A DNA stretch of 64,000 nt from positions 248,001 to 312,000 of the forward strand of contig NZ_PYJQ01000010.1 in NCBI RefSeq assembly GCF_003024605.1, written 5' to 3'. Below are positions 25,491 through 32,082 of this stretch, in pieces. Below the pieces are notes generated by a model that saw only the letters and a list, made by a program, of their open reading frames with translations, searched no databases and had not been told where the DNA came from. Both the position numbers and the translations under genes were made by a program. Source of the stretch: Rhizobium sp. JAB6. Its GTDB lineage: Bacteria > Pseudomonadota > Alphaproteobacteria > Rhizobiales > Rhizobiaceae. Each line of letters starts with the position of its first letter. Position 1 is the stretch's first letter.

Positions 25491-26159
25491 ATGAGGCTCC
25501 TGATCGTCGAAGACAACCGCGAACTGGCGTCCTGGCTCGGCAAGGCGCTGCGTCAGGCGCAATATGTCGTCGACATCGCCTACGACGGCGAGGACGCCGA
25601 GCACATGCTGAAAGTCGCGGCCTATGCCATCGTCATCCTCGATCTGTCGCTGCCGAAAATGGACGGGCTGACACTGCTGAAGCGGCTGCGTCAGAGCGGC
25701 AACAAGGTGCCGGTCATCATCCTGACGGCCAATGCCAGCCTCGATGGCCGCGTTGCGGGCCTCGACAGCGGCGCCGACGATTATCTGGCCAAACCTTTCG
25801 AAATTGCCGAGCTCGAAGCCCGCATACGCGCAGCCGTCCGCCGCGGCCACGACCGCGCCGCCCCGGAGATCGCTGTCGGCGACCTGGTGTTCGACGGCGG
25901 CACCCGGCAATTCTACCTGGCCGGTGAATCCCTGGCACTGACGCCGCGCGAGCACGCGGTACTCGAACATCTGATCATGAAGGCGGGCACGACCGTCACC
26001 AAGGCGACCCTCTCCGAAAGCGTCTTCGGTTTCGACGATCTCGCCGACACCAGCGCCATTGAGATCTATGTACATCGCGTCCGCAAGAAGCTCGAAGGCA
26101 GCACCGTGCAGATCGCGACGCTGCGCGGCCTGGGTTACCTCCTTCGCCATGCGCAATGA
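25491..26159 (+). CDS. TctD-like OmpR-family response regulator
   Basis: This 222-residue regulator has a receiver domain with phosphoacceptor Asp51 in ILDLSLPKMDG and Lys in DDYLAKPFE. The winged-helix domain ends IEIYVHRVRKKLEGS and GLGYLLR. The ATG at 25491 gives the normal family length. It overlaps the kinase gene by 11 bases. The pattern with the HQLRTP-type partner is that of the TctD/QseB group, members of which control uptake of organic acids. The ABC transporter operon downstream on the other strand carries matching direct-repeat promoters and is a plausible target. Confidence 0.9.
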   Translation: MRLLIVEDNRELASWLGKALRQAQYVVDIAYDGEDAEHMLKVAAYAIVILDLSLPKMDGLTLLKRLRQSGNKVPVIILTANASLDGRVAGLDSGADDYLAKPFEIAELEARIRAAVRRGHDRAAPEIAVGDLVFDGGTRQFYLAGESLALTPREHAVLEHLIMKAGTTVTKATLSESVFGFDDLADTSAIEIYVHRVRKKLEGSTVQIATLRGLGYLLRHAQ

Positions 26160-27564
26160 TGAGGCTTCATCACCCAAGGGAATCCTGAGCCGTGCCGTCG
26201 GCGCGGTAAGGACGAGCCTGCGGGCGCAGCTCTTCGCCTGGGTCGTACTGACCCTGATCGGCGCGATCTGCATCAATCTTTATCTTAGCTTCCGTTCGGC
26301 CGACGCGACGGCCAATCTCGTCACCGATCACACCTTGCTTGCCTCGGCACGCGTCATTGCGGAGGCCGTGCGGGTCGATGCCAACGGCTCGGTGCAGATC
26401 GACATTCCGCCTGCCGCATTGGAAATGTTCGACACCGGCTATGGCGACCGCGTCTTCTATCAGGTCGTGACCGCATGGGGAAATCTCGTCGCCGGCTTCC
26501 CCGATCTGCCGCGGCCAGAGCGTGACCAGATCGGCGAAGATAAAACCTTTCGGACCGATGGTGTCCGCGTGCTGATGCTCAGCCATCCTGTTGTCGGCCT
26601 CGATAAGGACAGCACGATTTCCGTCGCCGTTGCCGTTACCCATAACAGTCAGTATGCCATGCGCCGCAGGCTGTGGCTGTCGGACTTCACCAAGCAGCTC
26701 GCGCTGGTGTTGCTTGCCGGCCTGGTGACCATCATTGGCCTGCAGCGCGGCCTTGCTCCCGTGCTGCGCCTGCGTGACGCCGTGCGCGGACGCGGCCGCC
26801 AGCGCCTCGATCCGCTGAATCCCCACATGGTGCAGAACGAGCTTCGGCCCCTCGTCCACGCCCTCAACGATCATATGGAGCGCGTGCAGAACCAGATGGC
26901 GGCGCAACGCCGCTTCGTCTCGAACGCCGCTCACCAGCTGCGGACGCCGCTTGCGCTGATTTCCACTCAGGCAAGCTTTGCTGCACGCGAAACGGACAAT
27001 GGCCGCCGCGATGAGGCGCTGACCGCGTTGCGTTCCAGCACGCGGCAGGTGACGCGGCTTGCAAGCCAGCTTCTGACGCTCTCGCGCGCCGAACCTGGCA
27101 GCCGCCGGCCGCGCAACGATACGATCGATCTGGCGGAAACCGCCAGGCGGGTGCTGGAAACGCTCGCCGAGGAAGCCCTGCGCCGCAATATCGATCTCGG
27201 TCTGGAAGCCGATGAGACACCGGTGCATATCGAAGGCGACGGCACCATGCTGCGCGAAATGCTGGTCAATCTCGTCGATAATGCGCTGCGGTATACGCAA
27301 GCGGGCGGCCGGGTCACGGTCGGCATCGGCCGGGACGGCGACACGGCTCTGCTATGGGTCGAGGACAACGGCCCGGGCATTCCCGAAGCGGAGCGGGCCC
27401 AGGTATTCGAACGCTTCTATCGCATCATGGGCACCGAGCCGGAAGGCAGCGGCCTCGGCCTCGCCATCGTCCGCGAAGTCGTGGACGGCGCCGGCGGCTC
27501 CGTCACGCTCGGCGATGCGGCGGGCGGCGGCCTGCTGGTCCGCGTGCGGCTGCCAGCGGCGTGA
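26149..27564 (+). CDS. TctE-like sensor histidine kinase
   Basis: This 471-residue membrane kinase has a first membrane helix at about 28-47, a periplasmic domain to about 180 and a second helix at about 182-200. The DHp domain has His262 in SNAAHQLRTPLALIS, and the ATPase domain has LVNLVDNALRYT, WVEDNGPGIP and GSGLGLAIV. The GYGDRVFYQV segment in the periplasmic part is usual for TctE-type sensors. The ATG at 26149 overlaps the regulator gene. The signal is not known. Organic acids are sensed by related proteins. Confidence 0.9.
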   Translation: MRNDEASSPKGILSRAVGAVRTSLRAQLFAWVVLTLIGAICINLYLSFRSADATANLVTDHTLLASARVIAEAVRVDANGSVQIDIPPAALEMFDTGYGDRVFYQVVTAWGNLVAGFPDLPRPERDQIGEDKTFRTDGVRVLMLSHPVVGLDKDSTISVAVAVTHNSQYAMRRRLWLSDFTKQLALVLLAGLVTIIGLQRGLAPVLRLRDAVRGRGRQRLDPLNPHMVQNELRPLVHALNDHMERVQNQMAAQRRFVSNAAHQLRTPLALISTQASFAARETDNGRRDEALTALRSSTRQVTRLASQLLTLSRAEPGSRRPRNDTIDLAETARRVLETLAEEALRRNIDLGLEADETPVHIEGDGTMLREMLVNLVDNALRYTQAGGRVTVGIGRDGDTALLWVEDNGPGIPEAERAQVFERFYRIMGTEPEGSGLGLAIVREVVDGAGGSVTLGDAAGGGLLVRVRLPAA

Positions 27565-27702: not shown

Positions 27703-28584
27703 TTAATGCGTGTCGAGGCTTTGCTGCGGACGCCAGCGGGTGATGCGGTTTTCGATGAGTGTCATCACATATTCGGCGCCGAGGGTAACAACCATCACCA
27801 GGATGATCGCGGCATAGAGGCCGGCGGCGTCGTAGGTGCCCTTGGCGATCGAGATCAGGTAGCCGATGCCGGCCAGCGATCCGACGAACTCGCCGACGAT
27901 CGCGCCGATGATGGCGAAGGAGAAGGAGATGTGCAGGCTTGCAAAAATCCAGCTCATCGCCGACGGCAAGATCACTCTGCGGGTGACCTGCCAGTTGGAT
28001 GCGCCGAGAATTCGGGCGTTGGCGATCATGTTACGGTCGGCTTCGCGAACGCCCTGGAAGGCATTGGCAAACACCACGAAGAACACCATGATGAAGGCGA
28101 GCGCCACCTTCGACGCCAGGCCGAGACCCATGATCATCACGAAGATCGGCGCAAGAACGACGCGCGGGATCGAGTTGATCGCCTTGATGTAGATCGACAG
28201 AATATCGGAAGCGAGCTTGTTGCGGCCAAGGGCGACGCCGACGAGGACGCCGGTCACCGAGCCGATGATAAAGCCGATCAGCGCTTCTTCCATGGTGACG
28301 CCGAGATGATACCAGAGCGAGCCGCTCTCTGTTCCCTCGCGAACCCAGTCCCAAAGACGTAGCCCGATGGCGTAGGGGCTGGAATAGAAGAAGGGATCGA
28401 TCCAGTGCAGATCGGAGGTGAGCTGCCACAGGCCGAGGATGGCGGCGAGAATGCCCACCTGCCATGCGGCGACGACATATTTGCGGCGCGTCATCGCCTT
28501 TAGTGCTGCAGCTTCGATTTCCGCATCCGAAGTGCCGGCGCGGAAGATCGGGGCATTGCCTGCTTCGAGAGCTGTATTTGCCAT
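27703..28584 (-). CDS. ABC transporter permease (NitT/TauT type)
   Basis: This 293-residue inner-membrane permease has about six helices and the cytoplasmic coupling motif in EADRNMIANARILGASNWQV (EAA loop). It belongs to the SsuC/TauC/ThiX group. The ATG at 28584 follows a perfect GGAGG, which rules out the longer frame. It follows the ATPase gene by 13 bases and is the last gene of the operon, ahead of a terminator. Proteins of this group import sulfonates, nitrate or thiamine precursors. The substrate here is unknown. Confidence 0.9.
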   Translation of the reverse strand: MANTALEAGNAPIFRAGTSDAEIEAAALKAMTRRKYVVAAWQVGILAAILGLWQLTSDLHWIDPFFYSSPYAIGLRLWDWVREGTESGSLWYHLGVTMEEALIGFIIGSVTGVLVGVALGRNKLASDILSIYIKAINSIPRVVLAPIFVMIMGLGLASKVALAFIMVFFVVFANAFQGVREADRNMIANARILGASNWQVTRRVILPSAMSWIFASLHISFSFAIIGAIVGEFVGSLAGIGYLISIAKGTYDAAGLYAAIILVMVVTLGAEYVMTLIENRITRWRPQQSLDTH

Positions 28585-28597
28585 GATGAATCCTCCC

Positions 28598-29416
28598 TTA
28601 CGCCGCTTCCGCGGCACGGCGATAGCTGGTTTCGACCTCTTCGCGCAGGTCGTCCCAAATCGTCTTGCAATAATCGATGAAGTTCTGCTCGTAGCGGATC
28701 TCCGAGACGACGCGCGGGCGCGGCAGATCGATCGTGTAGACCGATTTGACCGTTGCCGGGCCAGCCGTCAGGACATAGACCTTGTCGGCGAGCGCGACGG
28801 CTTCTTCGAGATCGTGCGTGACGAAGACGACGGACGCCTGGCGTTCGGCCCAGAGCTTCAGGAGCTCTTCATGCATGACCGTGCGGGTCTGCACGTCGAG
28901 CGCCGAGAAGGGCTCGTCCATGAGCAGGATTTCCGGCTCGTTGATGAAGGTCTGCGCCAGCGAAACGCGCTTGCGCATGCCGCCCGAGAGCTGATGCGGA
29001 TAGTGATGCAGGAACTTCGAAAGACCCACGCGGGCCAGCCAATCCTTGGCCATCTTTTCGGCTTCGGCCTTCGACTTGCCGCGGAACAGCGGGCCGGACA
29101 TCACGTTTTCGATGACATTCTGCCACGGAAAGAGTGCATCCGTCTGGAAGGCGAAGCCGACGCGCCGGTCGATGCCGCTGACCGGCCCGCCCATCAAGCG
29201 GACTTCGCCGGCGCTCGGCTTGGCAAGGCCCGTGACGAGATTGAGCGTCGTCGACTTGCCGCAGCCCGTCGGCCCGACAACGGCGACGAATTCGCCGCGC
29301 TCGACGGTCATGTTGAAATCGCGCAGTGCGGTCAGCGACTTGCCGGTCGGCGACACGAAACGGCGGCTGACATTGATGAGCTCTATCGCCGGGGTACGGC
29401 GTTCATCCTGTTGCAT
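28598..29416 (-). CDS. ABC transporter ATP-binding protein (NitT/TauT type)
   Basis: This 272-residue ATPase has Walker [10 protein letters not shown], the Q-loop in [12 protein letters not shown], the signature [13 protein letters not shown], Walker [13 protein letters not shown] and the H-loop FVTHDLEEA. It energises the permease encoded 13 bases downstream. The ATG at 29416 (MQQDERR) is preferred to an upstream TTG. The gap of 121 bases to the binding-protein gene upstream has no terminator-like stem, so one transcript is likely. Confidence 0.92.
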
Positions 29417-29537
29417 GGTGCTGATCCTGACGCGTGCCTTCAGGGCGTGCACGCAAAGCCCGGTGAACTGCAAAGTCTGTTGAACTGCCGCTTCCGAAAC
29501 CTGTCTGAAAACTGGCCGGAAGCGGCGTTCTGACTGC

Positions 29538-30551
29538 TTACTTGACGTTCTTCACGAATTCCGTCGTGTAGGTCTTCGACAGGTCGATCGTCTTGCCCTT
29601 GACGTTCTTGGAGAACTGCGAGAGCACGGCGAGAACCGTCTTCGGACCATCTTCCGGCATCACGCCATCGGGCGTGAACATTTCCTTGCCGGCATCGAGC
29701 GCCTTGATGTAGCCGTCCTTGTCGCCGACGTAGAAATCTTTCGGCATCTTGTCGGCGATCTCAGCGCCCGAATGCGTGTTGATGAAACGCAGCGTCTTGA
29801 CGAAAGCGTTCGCGAGCTTCTGCACTTCTTCCTTATGCGCATCGACCCATGCGGCATCCATATAGAGCGAGGCCGCCGGATAGGTACCGCCGAGCGCCTC
29901 TTCGGTGCCCTTCAGCGTCCGCAGATCAACGAGGATTTTGGCCTCGCCGGTCTTCAGCAGGCGCGAGATTGTCGGCTCGGTGGTCATGCCCACCTGGATT
30001 GCGTCCTGCTGCATGGCGGCGATGAAGGTCTGGCCGGCGCCGACCGGTACAGGCGTGATGTCAGCCGGAGAGAGGCCTGCCTTCGATGCCATGTAAAGGG
30101 TCAGGAAATTAGTGGAGGAGCCGAGGCCGGTGACGCCGGCGCGCTTGCCCTTCAGGTCGGCAAAGGACTTGATATCGGGATATTTGGCCGAAACCAGCTC
30201 CACTTCACCCGGTGCCTGGCTGAACTGCACGACCGACTTGATGAACTTGCCCTTGGCCTGCAGGTCCACGCAGTGGTCGTAGAAGCCAACGACACCCTGA
30301 ACGGCGCCGGCAAGCAGCTGGTTTTCGGCGTCGACGCCGGCCGATTCGTTGAGAAGCTCGACGTCGAGACCTTCATCCTTGAAGTAGCCGAGGGATTCGG
30401 CGAGCTTGGCCGGCAGATAGATCTGCTTTTCGTAGCCGCCCACCATGATGGAAATCTTGTCAGCCGCATTGGCCGCGGTCGCTGCAAGGGAAGCGGCTGA
30501 TATGACGAGAGAAAGGGCTACGGTGTGAAAAAGGGTGCGCGATGAACGCAT
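29538..30551 (-). CDS. ABC transporter substrate-binding protein, copy 1
   Basis: This 337-residue periplasmic binding protein of the NMT1/THI5/TauA type has a signal peptide ending near ANAADKIS. Its binding-domain motifs are VGGYEKQIYLPAKLAESLGY, LAGAVQGVVGFYDH and GLGSSTNFLT. It is nearly the same length and sequence as the protein encoded directly upstream at 30798-31811, so the pair arose by tandem duplication. The ATG at 30551 has a GGAGGAG site. Its upstream region repeats that of the second copy, including the 11-base-period CTTTCAG boxes, so it may have its own promoter. The ligand is not known. Confidence 0.88.
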   Translation of the reverse strand: MRSSRTLFHTVALSLVISAASLAATAANAADKISIMVGGYEKQIYLPAKLAESLGYFKDEGLDVELLNESAGVDAENQLLAGAVQGVVGFYDHCVDLQAKGKFIKSVVQFSQAPGEVELVSAKYPDIKSFADLKGKRAGVTGLGSSTNFLTLYMASKAGLSPADITPVPVGAGQTFIAAMQQDAIQVGMTTEPTISRLLKTGEAKILVDLRTLKGTEEALGGTYPAASLYMDAAWVDAHKEEVQKLANAFVKTLRFINTHSGAEIADKMPKDFYVGDKDGYIKALDAGKEMFTPDGVMPEDGPKTVLAVLSQFSKNVKGKTIDLSKTYTTEFVKNVK

Positions 30552-30625
30552 CAATGTCTCCTCCTGTTCGAATCGTTGCGCCATGCGACGCTGCAGAAAA
30601 GATGCTTCCTCCACGAAGCTTAGCC

Positions 30626-30667
30626 AAACTAACCCAGGCTACCTTTCAGCTAGCTTTCAGCTTTCAC
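30626..30667 (-). promoter_or_regulatory. Promoter of binding-protein copy 1 with OmpR-type direct repeats
   Basis: On the plus strand CTTTCAG occurs at 30643 and 30654, exactly 11 bases apart, with a third form CTTTCAC at 30661. On the transcribed strand these read CTGAAAG and are followed after 11 bases by TAGTTT (30631-30626) as a possible -10 box. Direct repeats of this period next to a -10 are typical of PhoB/OmpR-family activators. Confidence 0.6.
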
Positions 30668-30702
30668 CCTCCAATGCGGCATTGCAATTTTATTAACGTG
30701 AA

Positions 30703-30732
30703 CGCCGGCGGCACAAATATGTGCCGCCGGCG
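30703..30732 (-). terminator. Strong hairpin between the two binding-protein genes
   Basis: CGCCGGCGGCACA and TGTGCCGCCGGCG form a perfect 13-base-pair stem around AATA. It lies after the stop of copy 2. No long T run follows on the minus strand, so it may act as a partial terminator or as a transcript-stabilising stem that lowers read-through. Confidence 0.6.
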
Positions 30733-30797
30733 CTCGTCCTTCACTTCGCGATCTGACGGAAATCCAGCCCCGGTCAGGACCGGAACGATGCTCCGAA

Positions 30798-31811
30798 CTA
30801 TTTGGCGTTCTTGACGAATTCCGTCGTATAGGTCCTCTTCAGGTCGATCGTCTTGCCCTGAACGTTCTTGGAAAATTCGGAAAGCACGGCAAGAACGGTT
30901 TTCGGGCCGTCTTCCGGCATCACGCCATCCGGCGTGAACATAGCCTTGCCGTTTTCGAGCGCCTTCACATAGCCTTCCTTGTCGCCGACATAGAAATCCT
31001 TCGGCATCTTGTCGGCGATCTCGGCGGCCGAATGGGTGTTGATGAAATGCAGCGTCTTGACGAAAGCATTCGCAAGCTTCTGCACCTCCTCCTTGTGATC
31101 CTTGACCCACGACTCCTGCATGTAAAGAGATGCGGCAGGATAGGTTCCGCCCAGGGCGGCTCTCGTTCCATCCATCGTGCGCATGTCGATGAGGACCTTG
31201 GCTTCCCCGGTCTTCAGGAGACGCGAGACCGTCGGCTCGGTCGTCATGCCGGCCTGGATGGCATCCTGCTGCATGGCGGCGATGAAGGTCTGGCCGGCAC
31301 CGACCGGAACGGAGGTGAATTCGCCCAGCTTCAGGCCGGCCTTGACCGCCAGATACTGGGTCAGGAAATTGGTCGAGGAACCGAGGCCGGTGACGCCGAG
31401 GCTCTTGCCCTTGAAATCGGCGGGGGATTTGATCTCCGGATGCTTGGCCGAGACCAGTTCGACTTCGCCTGGCGCTTGGCTGAACTGCACGATGGATTCG
31501 ACGAACTTGCCCTTGCCCTGAAGGTCGATGCAATGATCGTAGAAGCCGACGACGCCCTGCACAGCACCTGCCAGCATTTCATTTTCCGCATCGACGCCCG
31601 CAGGCTCGTTCAGAAGCTCGACATTCAGACCTTCATCCTTGAAGTAGCCGAGGCCTTCGGCAAGCTTGGCCGGCAGATAGATCTGCTTCTCGTAACCGCC
31701 CACCATGATCGAGATCTTATCGGCGGCATGTGCCGCAGGGGCTGCAAAGGAAGCAGCTGATAGGACGAGGGATAGGGCTACGGTATTAAAAAGAGTGCGC
31801 GACGAACGCAT
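30798..31811 (-). CDS. ABC transporter substrate-binding protein, copy 2
   Basis: This 337-residue periplasmic protein is closely similar over its whole length to the product of the next gene, including the signal peptide MRSSRTLF and the C-terminal YTTEFVKN. Differences are scattered and mostly mild. It is the first gene of the transporter operon. Start ATG at 31811 follows a GGAGG-like site. The two copies may bind related ligands or raise the amount of binding protein. Neither copy shows frameshifts or loss of key regions. Confidence 0.88.
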   Translation of the reverse strand: MRSSRTLFNTVALSLVLSAASFAAPAAHAADKISIMVGGYEKQIYLPAKLAEGLGYFKDEGLNVELLNEPAGVDAENEMLAGAVQGVVGFYDHCIDLQGKGKFVESIVQFSQAPGEVELVSAKHPEIKSPADFKGKSLGVTGLGSSTNFLTQYLAVKAGLKLGEFTSVPVGAGQTFIAAMQQDAIQAGMTTEPTVSRLLKTGEAKVLIDMRTMDGTRAALGGTYPAASLYMQESWVKDHKEEVQKLANAFVKTLHFINTHSAAEIADKMPKDFYVGDKEGYVKALENGKAMFTPDGVMPEDGPKTVLAVLSEFSKNVQGKTIDLKRTYTTEFVKNAK

Positions 31812-31884
31812 TAAGGTCTCCTCCGATTTGAATGCTCACGCCATATGACGCTGCGCAAAACTGCTTCCTCCACGAAGCCCGGCG

Positions 31885-31919
31885 AGTTTAGGACGTGCAA
31901 CCTTTCAGTCGGCTTTCAG
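31885..31919 (-). promoter_or_regulatory. Promoter of binding-protein copy 2 with OmpR-type direct repeats
   Basis: CTTTCAG occurs at 31902 and 31913, again 11 bases apart. On the transcribed strand they are followed after 11 bases by TAAACT (31890-31885), a good -10 box. The layout equals that of copy 1, while the bases between the boxes differ, so the boxes look selected for. Confidence 0.65.
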
Positions 31920-32082
31920 TGCACGATCCCAAACAACGACATTGCAAGTTTATTTCCTCGGTTTGGCGGCGCAAATCTGGCCGCCCTCATCACCGCCTTG
32001 CAACGAGAAGCGTTGCCCGATCTTGGCAATTCCCGCGCTGCGACTATTTGAGACGAAGTGCTTTCGTTGGGAGGGATCATCG

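Follow-up and report, generated by a model that had tools for sequence, protein, structure and literature searches.

TGAAAG direct repeats as predicted operators of a TctD-like regulator at an NMT1-type ABC uptake locus of Rhizobium

Two promoters of an ABC uptake locus in Rhizobium sp. JAB6 carry an 11-bp direct repeat of CTGAAAG, and both copies are predicted, from comparative sequence evidence, to be 'TctD boxes', operators at which the TctD-like response regulator of the gene at 25491 would activate the uptake system in the manner of PhoB; we assign this reading a probability of about 0.86. It rests on a conserved repeat, TGAAAG[C/G]-N4-TGAAAG, usually followed after 10-11 bases by the TA of a −10 element, that is co-conserved with the TctD clade of regulators. 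The same interpretation had been offered in a preliminary description of this DNA, and the comparisons below support it, with binding itself as a prediction.

Materials and methods

Sequences. The window is the whole stretch of 64 000 nucleotides that was analysed, and all positions refer to it. The genome sequence searched amounted to 4.0 Mb (73% complete). Most counts below keep near-identical relatives as separate rows; only the regulator tree was thinned.

Transporter survey. Among 199 Rhizobiaceae genomes, 35 had a match to the substrate-binding protein (SBP) at E≤1e-40. The orthologue set comprised the 16 SBP matches outside the window with at least 69% identity, from 15 genomes. A 22-column matrix was trained on 15 of the 16 sites at these genes together with the SBP2 site of the window. 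The named set consisted of the best 80 of at least 580 relatives from a scan of genome contigs, with a site called at a matrix score ≥20 within 320 bp upstream of an SBP gene. Seven SBP genes were treated as unlinked, there being no regulator nearby and the regulator lying on another contig, as judged by contig numbers, lengths and positions.

Regulator survey. A search with the regulator gave 21 matches at E≤1e-60 in 297 genomes of the order, and 31 of 349 genomes of the phylum matched. The distant sample of 24 loci, 20 chosen from the matches plus four plasmid loci, is a selection of matches. Recognition helices were compared in 122 regulators, not thinned, counting sites within about 6.5 kb.

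Results

The repeats and their surroundings. Features of the locus are collected in Table 1. The exact pattern CTGAAAG-N4-CTGAAAG occurs twice in the 64-kb window, at the SBP1 and SBP2 promoters only, and the genome-wide search that the preliminary description had called for gave the same two copies in the 4.0 Mb (73% complete) covered, both before SBP genes. At each promoter the second heptamer lies 11 bases before a −10-like hexamer fitting TANNNT, and the four-base spacers differ, just as had been described. Looser matching adds nothing: with up to three mismatches the window has six matches, a number that 21 of 100 shuffles also reach, and with up to two mismatches the genome has 25 sites and the reversed pattern 30, which leaves the exact pair as the entire genomic signal. 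By matrix, the SBP1 operator (109 bp from the start codon and not among the training sites) scores 28.1, and the SBP2 operator (108 bp from the start codon and one of the 16 training sites) scores 33.6.

Table 1. Predicted operators and neighbouring features, in window coordinates
Feature	Position	Strand	Basis
TctD-like OmpR/PhoB-family response regulator, inferred binder	25491..26159	plus	Pfam Response_reg and Trans_reg_C; best NCBIfam model TctD; TctD clade
TctE-like sensor histidine kinase	26149..27564	plus	Pfam 2CSK_N, HisKA, HATPase_c
ABC transporter permease	27706..28617	minus	Pfam BPD_transp_1
ABC transporter ATPase, start codon uncertain	28601..29473	minus	Pfam ABC_tran
SBP1, NMT1/SsuA-like substrate-binding protein, heading the SBP1-ATPase-permease run	29538..30551	minus	Pfam NMT1; start from SBP2 homology
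Putative −10 hexamer of SBP1, TAGTTT, 11 bases after second heptamer	30626..30631	minus	Sequence; position conserved in relatives
Predicted operator of SBP1 promoter, CTGAAAG-CTAG-CTGAAAG, 11-bp direct repeat	30643..30660	minus	Sequence and matrix
Strong hairpin in the interval from SBP2 to the SBP1 promoter; putative terminator lacking a T-run	30703..30732	minus	−29.9 kcal/mol, z −9.0
SBP2, tandem SBP1 paralogue with its own operator	30798..31811	minus	Pfam; homology
Putative −10 hexamer of SBP2, TAAACT, 11 bases after second heptamer	31885..31890	minus	Sequence; position conserved in relatives
Predicted operator of SBP2 promoter, CTGAAAG-CCGA-CTGAAAG, 11-bp direct repeat	31902..31919	minus	Sequence and matrix

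The regulator gene does start with an ATG at 25491, where the preliminary description had placed it next to the operon, but the transporter operon runs towards it, in convergent orientation, and the nearer site is some 4.5 kb away. No operator-like match was found upstream of 25491 that would indicate autoregulation. Among the matches listed, the nearest named relative is Rhizobium hainanense (SBP 98%, regulator 100%).

Some other elements were seen nearby. A third (G)TGAAAG, out of phase, abuts the SBP1 operator upstream (30661-30667), and at two related loci (L047 and L048) there is a weaker third half-site that is in phase at 11 bp. The stem of the hairpin is a perfect 13 bp, and upstream of SBP2 there is another GC-rich inverted repeat like it. 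An inverted repeat whose loop resembles a Shine-Dalgarno sequence, GCTTCGTGGAGGAAGC, is present in both SBP leaders about 50-65 bases ahead of the start codons, at 30604-30619 for SBP1 and at the equivalent position for SBP2; the SBP1 and SBP2 5′ leaders as a whole fold no better than shuffles.

Promoter duplication. The SBP1 and SBP2 proteins are 83% identical and their promoters are paralogous duplicates. The agreement between the two promoters stressed in the preliminary description is therefore real but counts as one observation plus retention, not as two independent observations. Such a history would also allow the repeats to be functionless remnants of the duplication, an idea we find barely credible, since the heptamers are kept at 14 of 14 positions whereas the spacer agrees at 1/4, the 40 bases upstream at 22/40 and the 30 bases downstream at 17/30 (flanks about 55%), and since the repeat is conserved in other genera, families and classes with different flanks.

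Conservation at SBP promoters. TGAAAGC-N4-TGAAAG is found upstream of the SBP start in all 16 Rhizobiaceae orthologues, one of which has CGAAAG as the second half, and the flanking sequence varies between genera. The matrix puts the SBP-upstream site first in each of the 16 loci. Regulator and kinase genes adjoin the transporter in 15 of them; the exception (L036) is a lone SBP whose genome has the full cassette on a different contig.

In the named set (the best 80 of at least 580 relatives), the site is present in 69 of the 70 loci with a regulator and in 8 of the 10 without one or, counted per SBP gene, in 84 of 95, and off-target matches scoring ≥20 number zero in the 1 275 136 bases of these loci. 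Among the same best 80, 77 loci do not match any training locus at this position, yet the site is present in 74; for 67 of the 76 unique sites, the −10 TA starts 10 or 11 bases past the second heptamer. The 11 SBP genes without a site are the upstream SBP copy in eight loci (L098-L104 and L106) together with L105, L110 and L169 (score 16). Seven of these failures (L099-L104 and L106) have kept the spacing, with a first half-site that reads CTTTCAG, the reverse complement of CTGAAAG. This form belongs to the upstream SBP copy of a group related to R. tropici; three bases are changed, and the change resembles a micro-inversion.

Genes unlinked to the regulator. Five of the seven unlinked SBP genes have the site (L036, L096, L097, L107 and L134); the other two (L105 and L110) lack it despite a regulator in their genomes. 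In the window's own genome the two SBP sites are all that the pattern detects. An unlinked TctD-type site in the correct orientation stands before a CitMHS citrate-transporter gene (L240, genome G1005). The same site was seen in related DNA of a second genome of that genus (L244, G1024). A site before an MFS gene (L242) was dropped as a trans target for its wrong orientation, and further sites examined as trans candidates (L304, L306, L311, L320 and L329-L333, with L332 and L333 being one site in two related genomes) had no convincing target gene.

Loci found through the regulator. In all 15 new loci of the order seeded by the regulator (two from Rhizobiaceae), a site matches 11 or more of the 12 half-site bases. 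Three of them from one genus (L085-L087) have no NMT1 SBP, and in one (L087) the site lies directly before a different SBP gene. Among the 24 selected distant TctD-family loci, 15 have a site at this level; the nine others are L187, L188, L190, L191, L195, L197, L199, L208 and L209. By Pfam, the gene downstream of the site encodes TctC in nine cases (L189, L193, L200, L201, L203, L204, L205, L207 and L210), a porin in four (L196, L198, L202 and L206) and another SBP in two (L192 and L194). The porin at L206 is of the OprD family, the family to which OpdH, the TctD target of P. aeruginosa, belongs.

The regulators of L200, L204 and L205 exceed the NCBIfam cut-off for TctD, and there the site before TctC reads TGAAAGGTAA(A/T)TGAAAGGTT. 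In two gammaproteobacteria with an annotated tctD, Klebsiella aerogenes and Serratia proteamaculans, tctC is preceded by TGAAAGGGAAATGAAAGGT and TGAAAGGTAAATGAAAGGT, respectively, each with 12 of 12 half-site bases, and in Comamonas endophytica (L189) the site again precedes a tctC-family gene. A search of 13 genomes picked for a TctD-family regulator, allowing one mismatch, gave 16 matching places, of which the tctD locus accounts for 11, with a match in 12 of the 13 genomes; the reversed control gave one. E. coli was searched for a tctD locus and none was found.

On these comparisons the predicted operator goes with the regulator rather than with the transporter type. The preliminary description had held that a lack of similar sites near other targets would speak against it; the repeat is found at orthologous SBP genes, at unlinked SBP genes and at distant tctC, porin and SBP promoters. 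Its choice of the TctD-like protein as the candidate binder gains support from this co-conservation with the TctD clade.

Controls. Adjacency by itself does not prove regulation, and the repeats might belong to another conserved regulator, with the TctD-like gene merely a neighbour. Across 41 genomes the pattern was found in 21/21 with the SBP or the regulator and in 3/20 without the SBP, against two matches in total for the reversed pattern. One further locus (L147) has the site on a short contig of a 3.9-Mb MAG in which no regulator was found. The 3/20 and L147 count in favour of another binder. One of those three genomes (G012) holds an exact match (L334), flanked on one side by a regulator with the helix YIHRLRKK and on the other by an operon that opens with a gene lacking any Pfam match, followed by a TctA-TctB fusion. 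We regard the other-regulator explanation as very unlikely because the site tracks TctD-clade regulators across differing target transporters, is present at unlinked SBP genes in genomes containing the regulator, and is absent beside paralogues: 20 loci of paralogous OmpR/PhoB-type regulators (38-46% identity; together 133 482 bases, each locus covering less sequence than those under test) gave no site with ≥11/12 half-site bases. A single transporter locus was found in a genome that lacks a close regulator (L088, best match 41%), and this one case is without the site. In the regulator tree, a TGAAAG-type site is in reach for 37 of the 48 TctD-clade rows and for 2 of the 30 others.

Identity of the regulator. 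The window's regulator has receiver and winged-helix domains and is partnered with a kinase bearing a 2CSK_N domain. Its best NCBIfam model is TctD (PRK15479 equivalog), where its 269.2 bits fall below the curated 337-bit cut-off. In a quick tree built from 78 thinned rows it belongs to the 48-row TctD clade, which includes L200, L204 and L205, with an SH-aLRT of 99. TctD in the strict sense is linked to a tripartite tricarboxylate transporter; the neighbour here is an importer with NMT1, ABC_tran and BPD_transp_1 domains.

Recognition helix. The helix of the TctD clade is mostly AIEIY[VI][H/Y]R[LV]RKK, whose H/Y position is taken by S, G, A or T in the 20 paralogues. Among the 122 regulators, those with His or Tyr had TGAAAG in 66 of 84 cases and TGACAG in none, and the 33 with Ser or Gly had TGACAG in seven, TGAAAG in two (L255 and L257) and neither in 24. 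TGACAG repeats accompany the Ser/Gly regulators of L208, L209, L211, L247-L252 and L267, with an 11-bp period near the genes of L208, L209, L211 and L267. The regulator of L334, 39% identical, agrees with a helix-residue code in combining His with a TGAAAG site. Counter-examples are L255-L257, of which L256, from outside the 122-regulator set, combines Ser with TGAAAG. We treat the code as a lead: there are these counter-examples, and the tree offers two to three independent pairs, which gives no power.

Discussion

Proposed mechanism. Regulators of the OmpR/PhoB family commonly bind 11-bp repeats as head-to-tail dimers and contact sigma-70 in place of a −35 element. The PhoB-like geometry put forward in the preliminary description, a 7+4 repeat with the −10 box at +11, holds in the window and also across relatives. 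In the mechanism that we propose, sensing of the ligand would lead the TctE-like kinase to phosphorylate the regulator, two molecules of which would bind head-to-tail in the −35 position, one per half-site and on the same face of the DNA. The bound regulator would then recruit sigma-70 RNA polymerase by PhoB-type activation, and both SBP2 and the SBP1-ATPase-permease run would be transcribed more strongly. Any unlinked SBP gene that carries the box would come under its control in trans.

Sign of regulation. The same protein could instead bind chiefly as an unphosphorylated repressor, the signal derepressing the promoters. A site in the −35 position is compatible with occlusion too. For P. aeruginosa, derepression of opdH has been attributed to TctD-TctE (PMC6403454), and TctD is reported to oppose PhoB at common promoters (PMC4513871). 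Against this stand the near-fixed spacing to the −10 box, as activation predicts, and reports that Salmonella tctCBA is repressed when tctD is deleted and that Bordetella BctDE is necessary for expression (PMC5812351). A sigma-70 scan of 30500-32050, which knows one promoter type, gave no match; no −35 element to occlude was found, a weak point because shuffles average just 0.5. We consider repression by the same regulator improbable; activation is likelier because of the spacing and of the Salmonella and Bordetella reports. The same paper also reports that full induction in Bordetella needs ligand-bound BctC (PMC5812351), and by analogy one may speculate that the extra SBPs under the same box act like BctC.

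Relation to described systems. The closest parallel is TctD-TctE with tctCBA (the Salmonella type, with BctDE in Bordetella and TctED in P. aeruginosa), which shares with the present locus a regulator clade containing TctD proteins that pass the cut-off, a 2CSK_N-domain kinase and an operator TGAAAG-N5-TGAAAG before a transporter gene. The present locus departs from it in that an NMT1-type ABC importer, with its SBP gene duplicated, is the target instead of a TctCBA tripartite transporter, that the transporter and regulator genes are convergent, not divergent, and that the regulator falls under the TctD equivalog cut-off. Pho boxes, which replace a −35 element, are likewise direct repeats with a period of about 11 bp, and PhoB has the same family of DNA-binding domain, but its half-site is TGTCAT where TGAAAG is found here, and the present case involves another regulator and no known link to phosphate. 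PmrA (BasR) is among the best solved relatives of the window's regulator (4s04, 4s05 and 8jo2, after 1kgs, DrrD) and also has an 11-bp direct repeat as its operator; the PmrA box sequence differs from the TGAAAG repeat, and the window's regulator is 42% identical to an E. coli BasR. In the literature surveyed on TctD-family operators (including CTGAAAGC, TctDE and citrate, and Rhizobium TctD) we recognised no written-out operator; a P. aeruginosa TctD motif is published as a logo (PMC4513871).

Significance. A wider proposal can be framed, tentatively, and we think it rather doubtful as a whole: that one TctD box, TGAAAG[G/C]T-N3-TGAAAG, is shared by Alpha-, Beta- and Gammaproteobacteria and has moved between transporter classes with its regulator; that its fourth base is read by the helix residue (TGAAAG by His or Tyr, as in YVHRxRKK, and TGACAG by Ser or Gly); and that the unlinked rhizobial SBPs were enlisted by the box alone and may feed ligand information to the kinase, as in Bordetella BctC-BctE. 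The system described here is ordinary in kind, and it yields a candidate family-wide operator, the TctD box, that can be tested. TctD-family two-component systems are widespread, and a clean box would allow regulons to be predicted in unstudied genomes, would give a clue to the substrates of NMT1-type importers and orphan SBPs, and would offer a natural series of regulator/operator pairs on which a DNA-recognition code could be tested.
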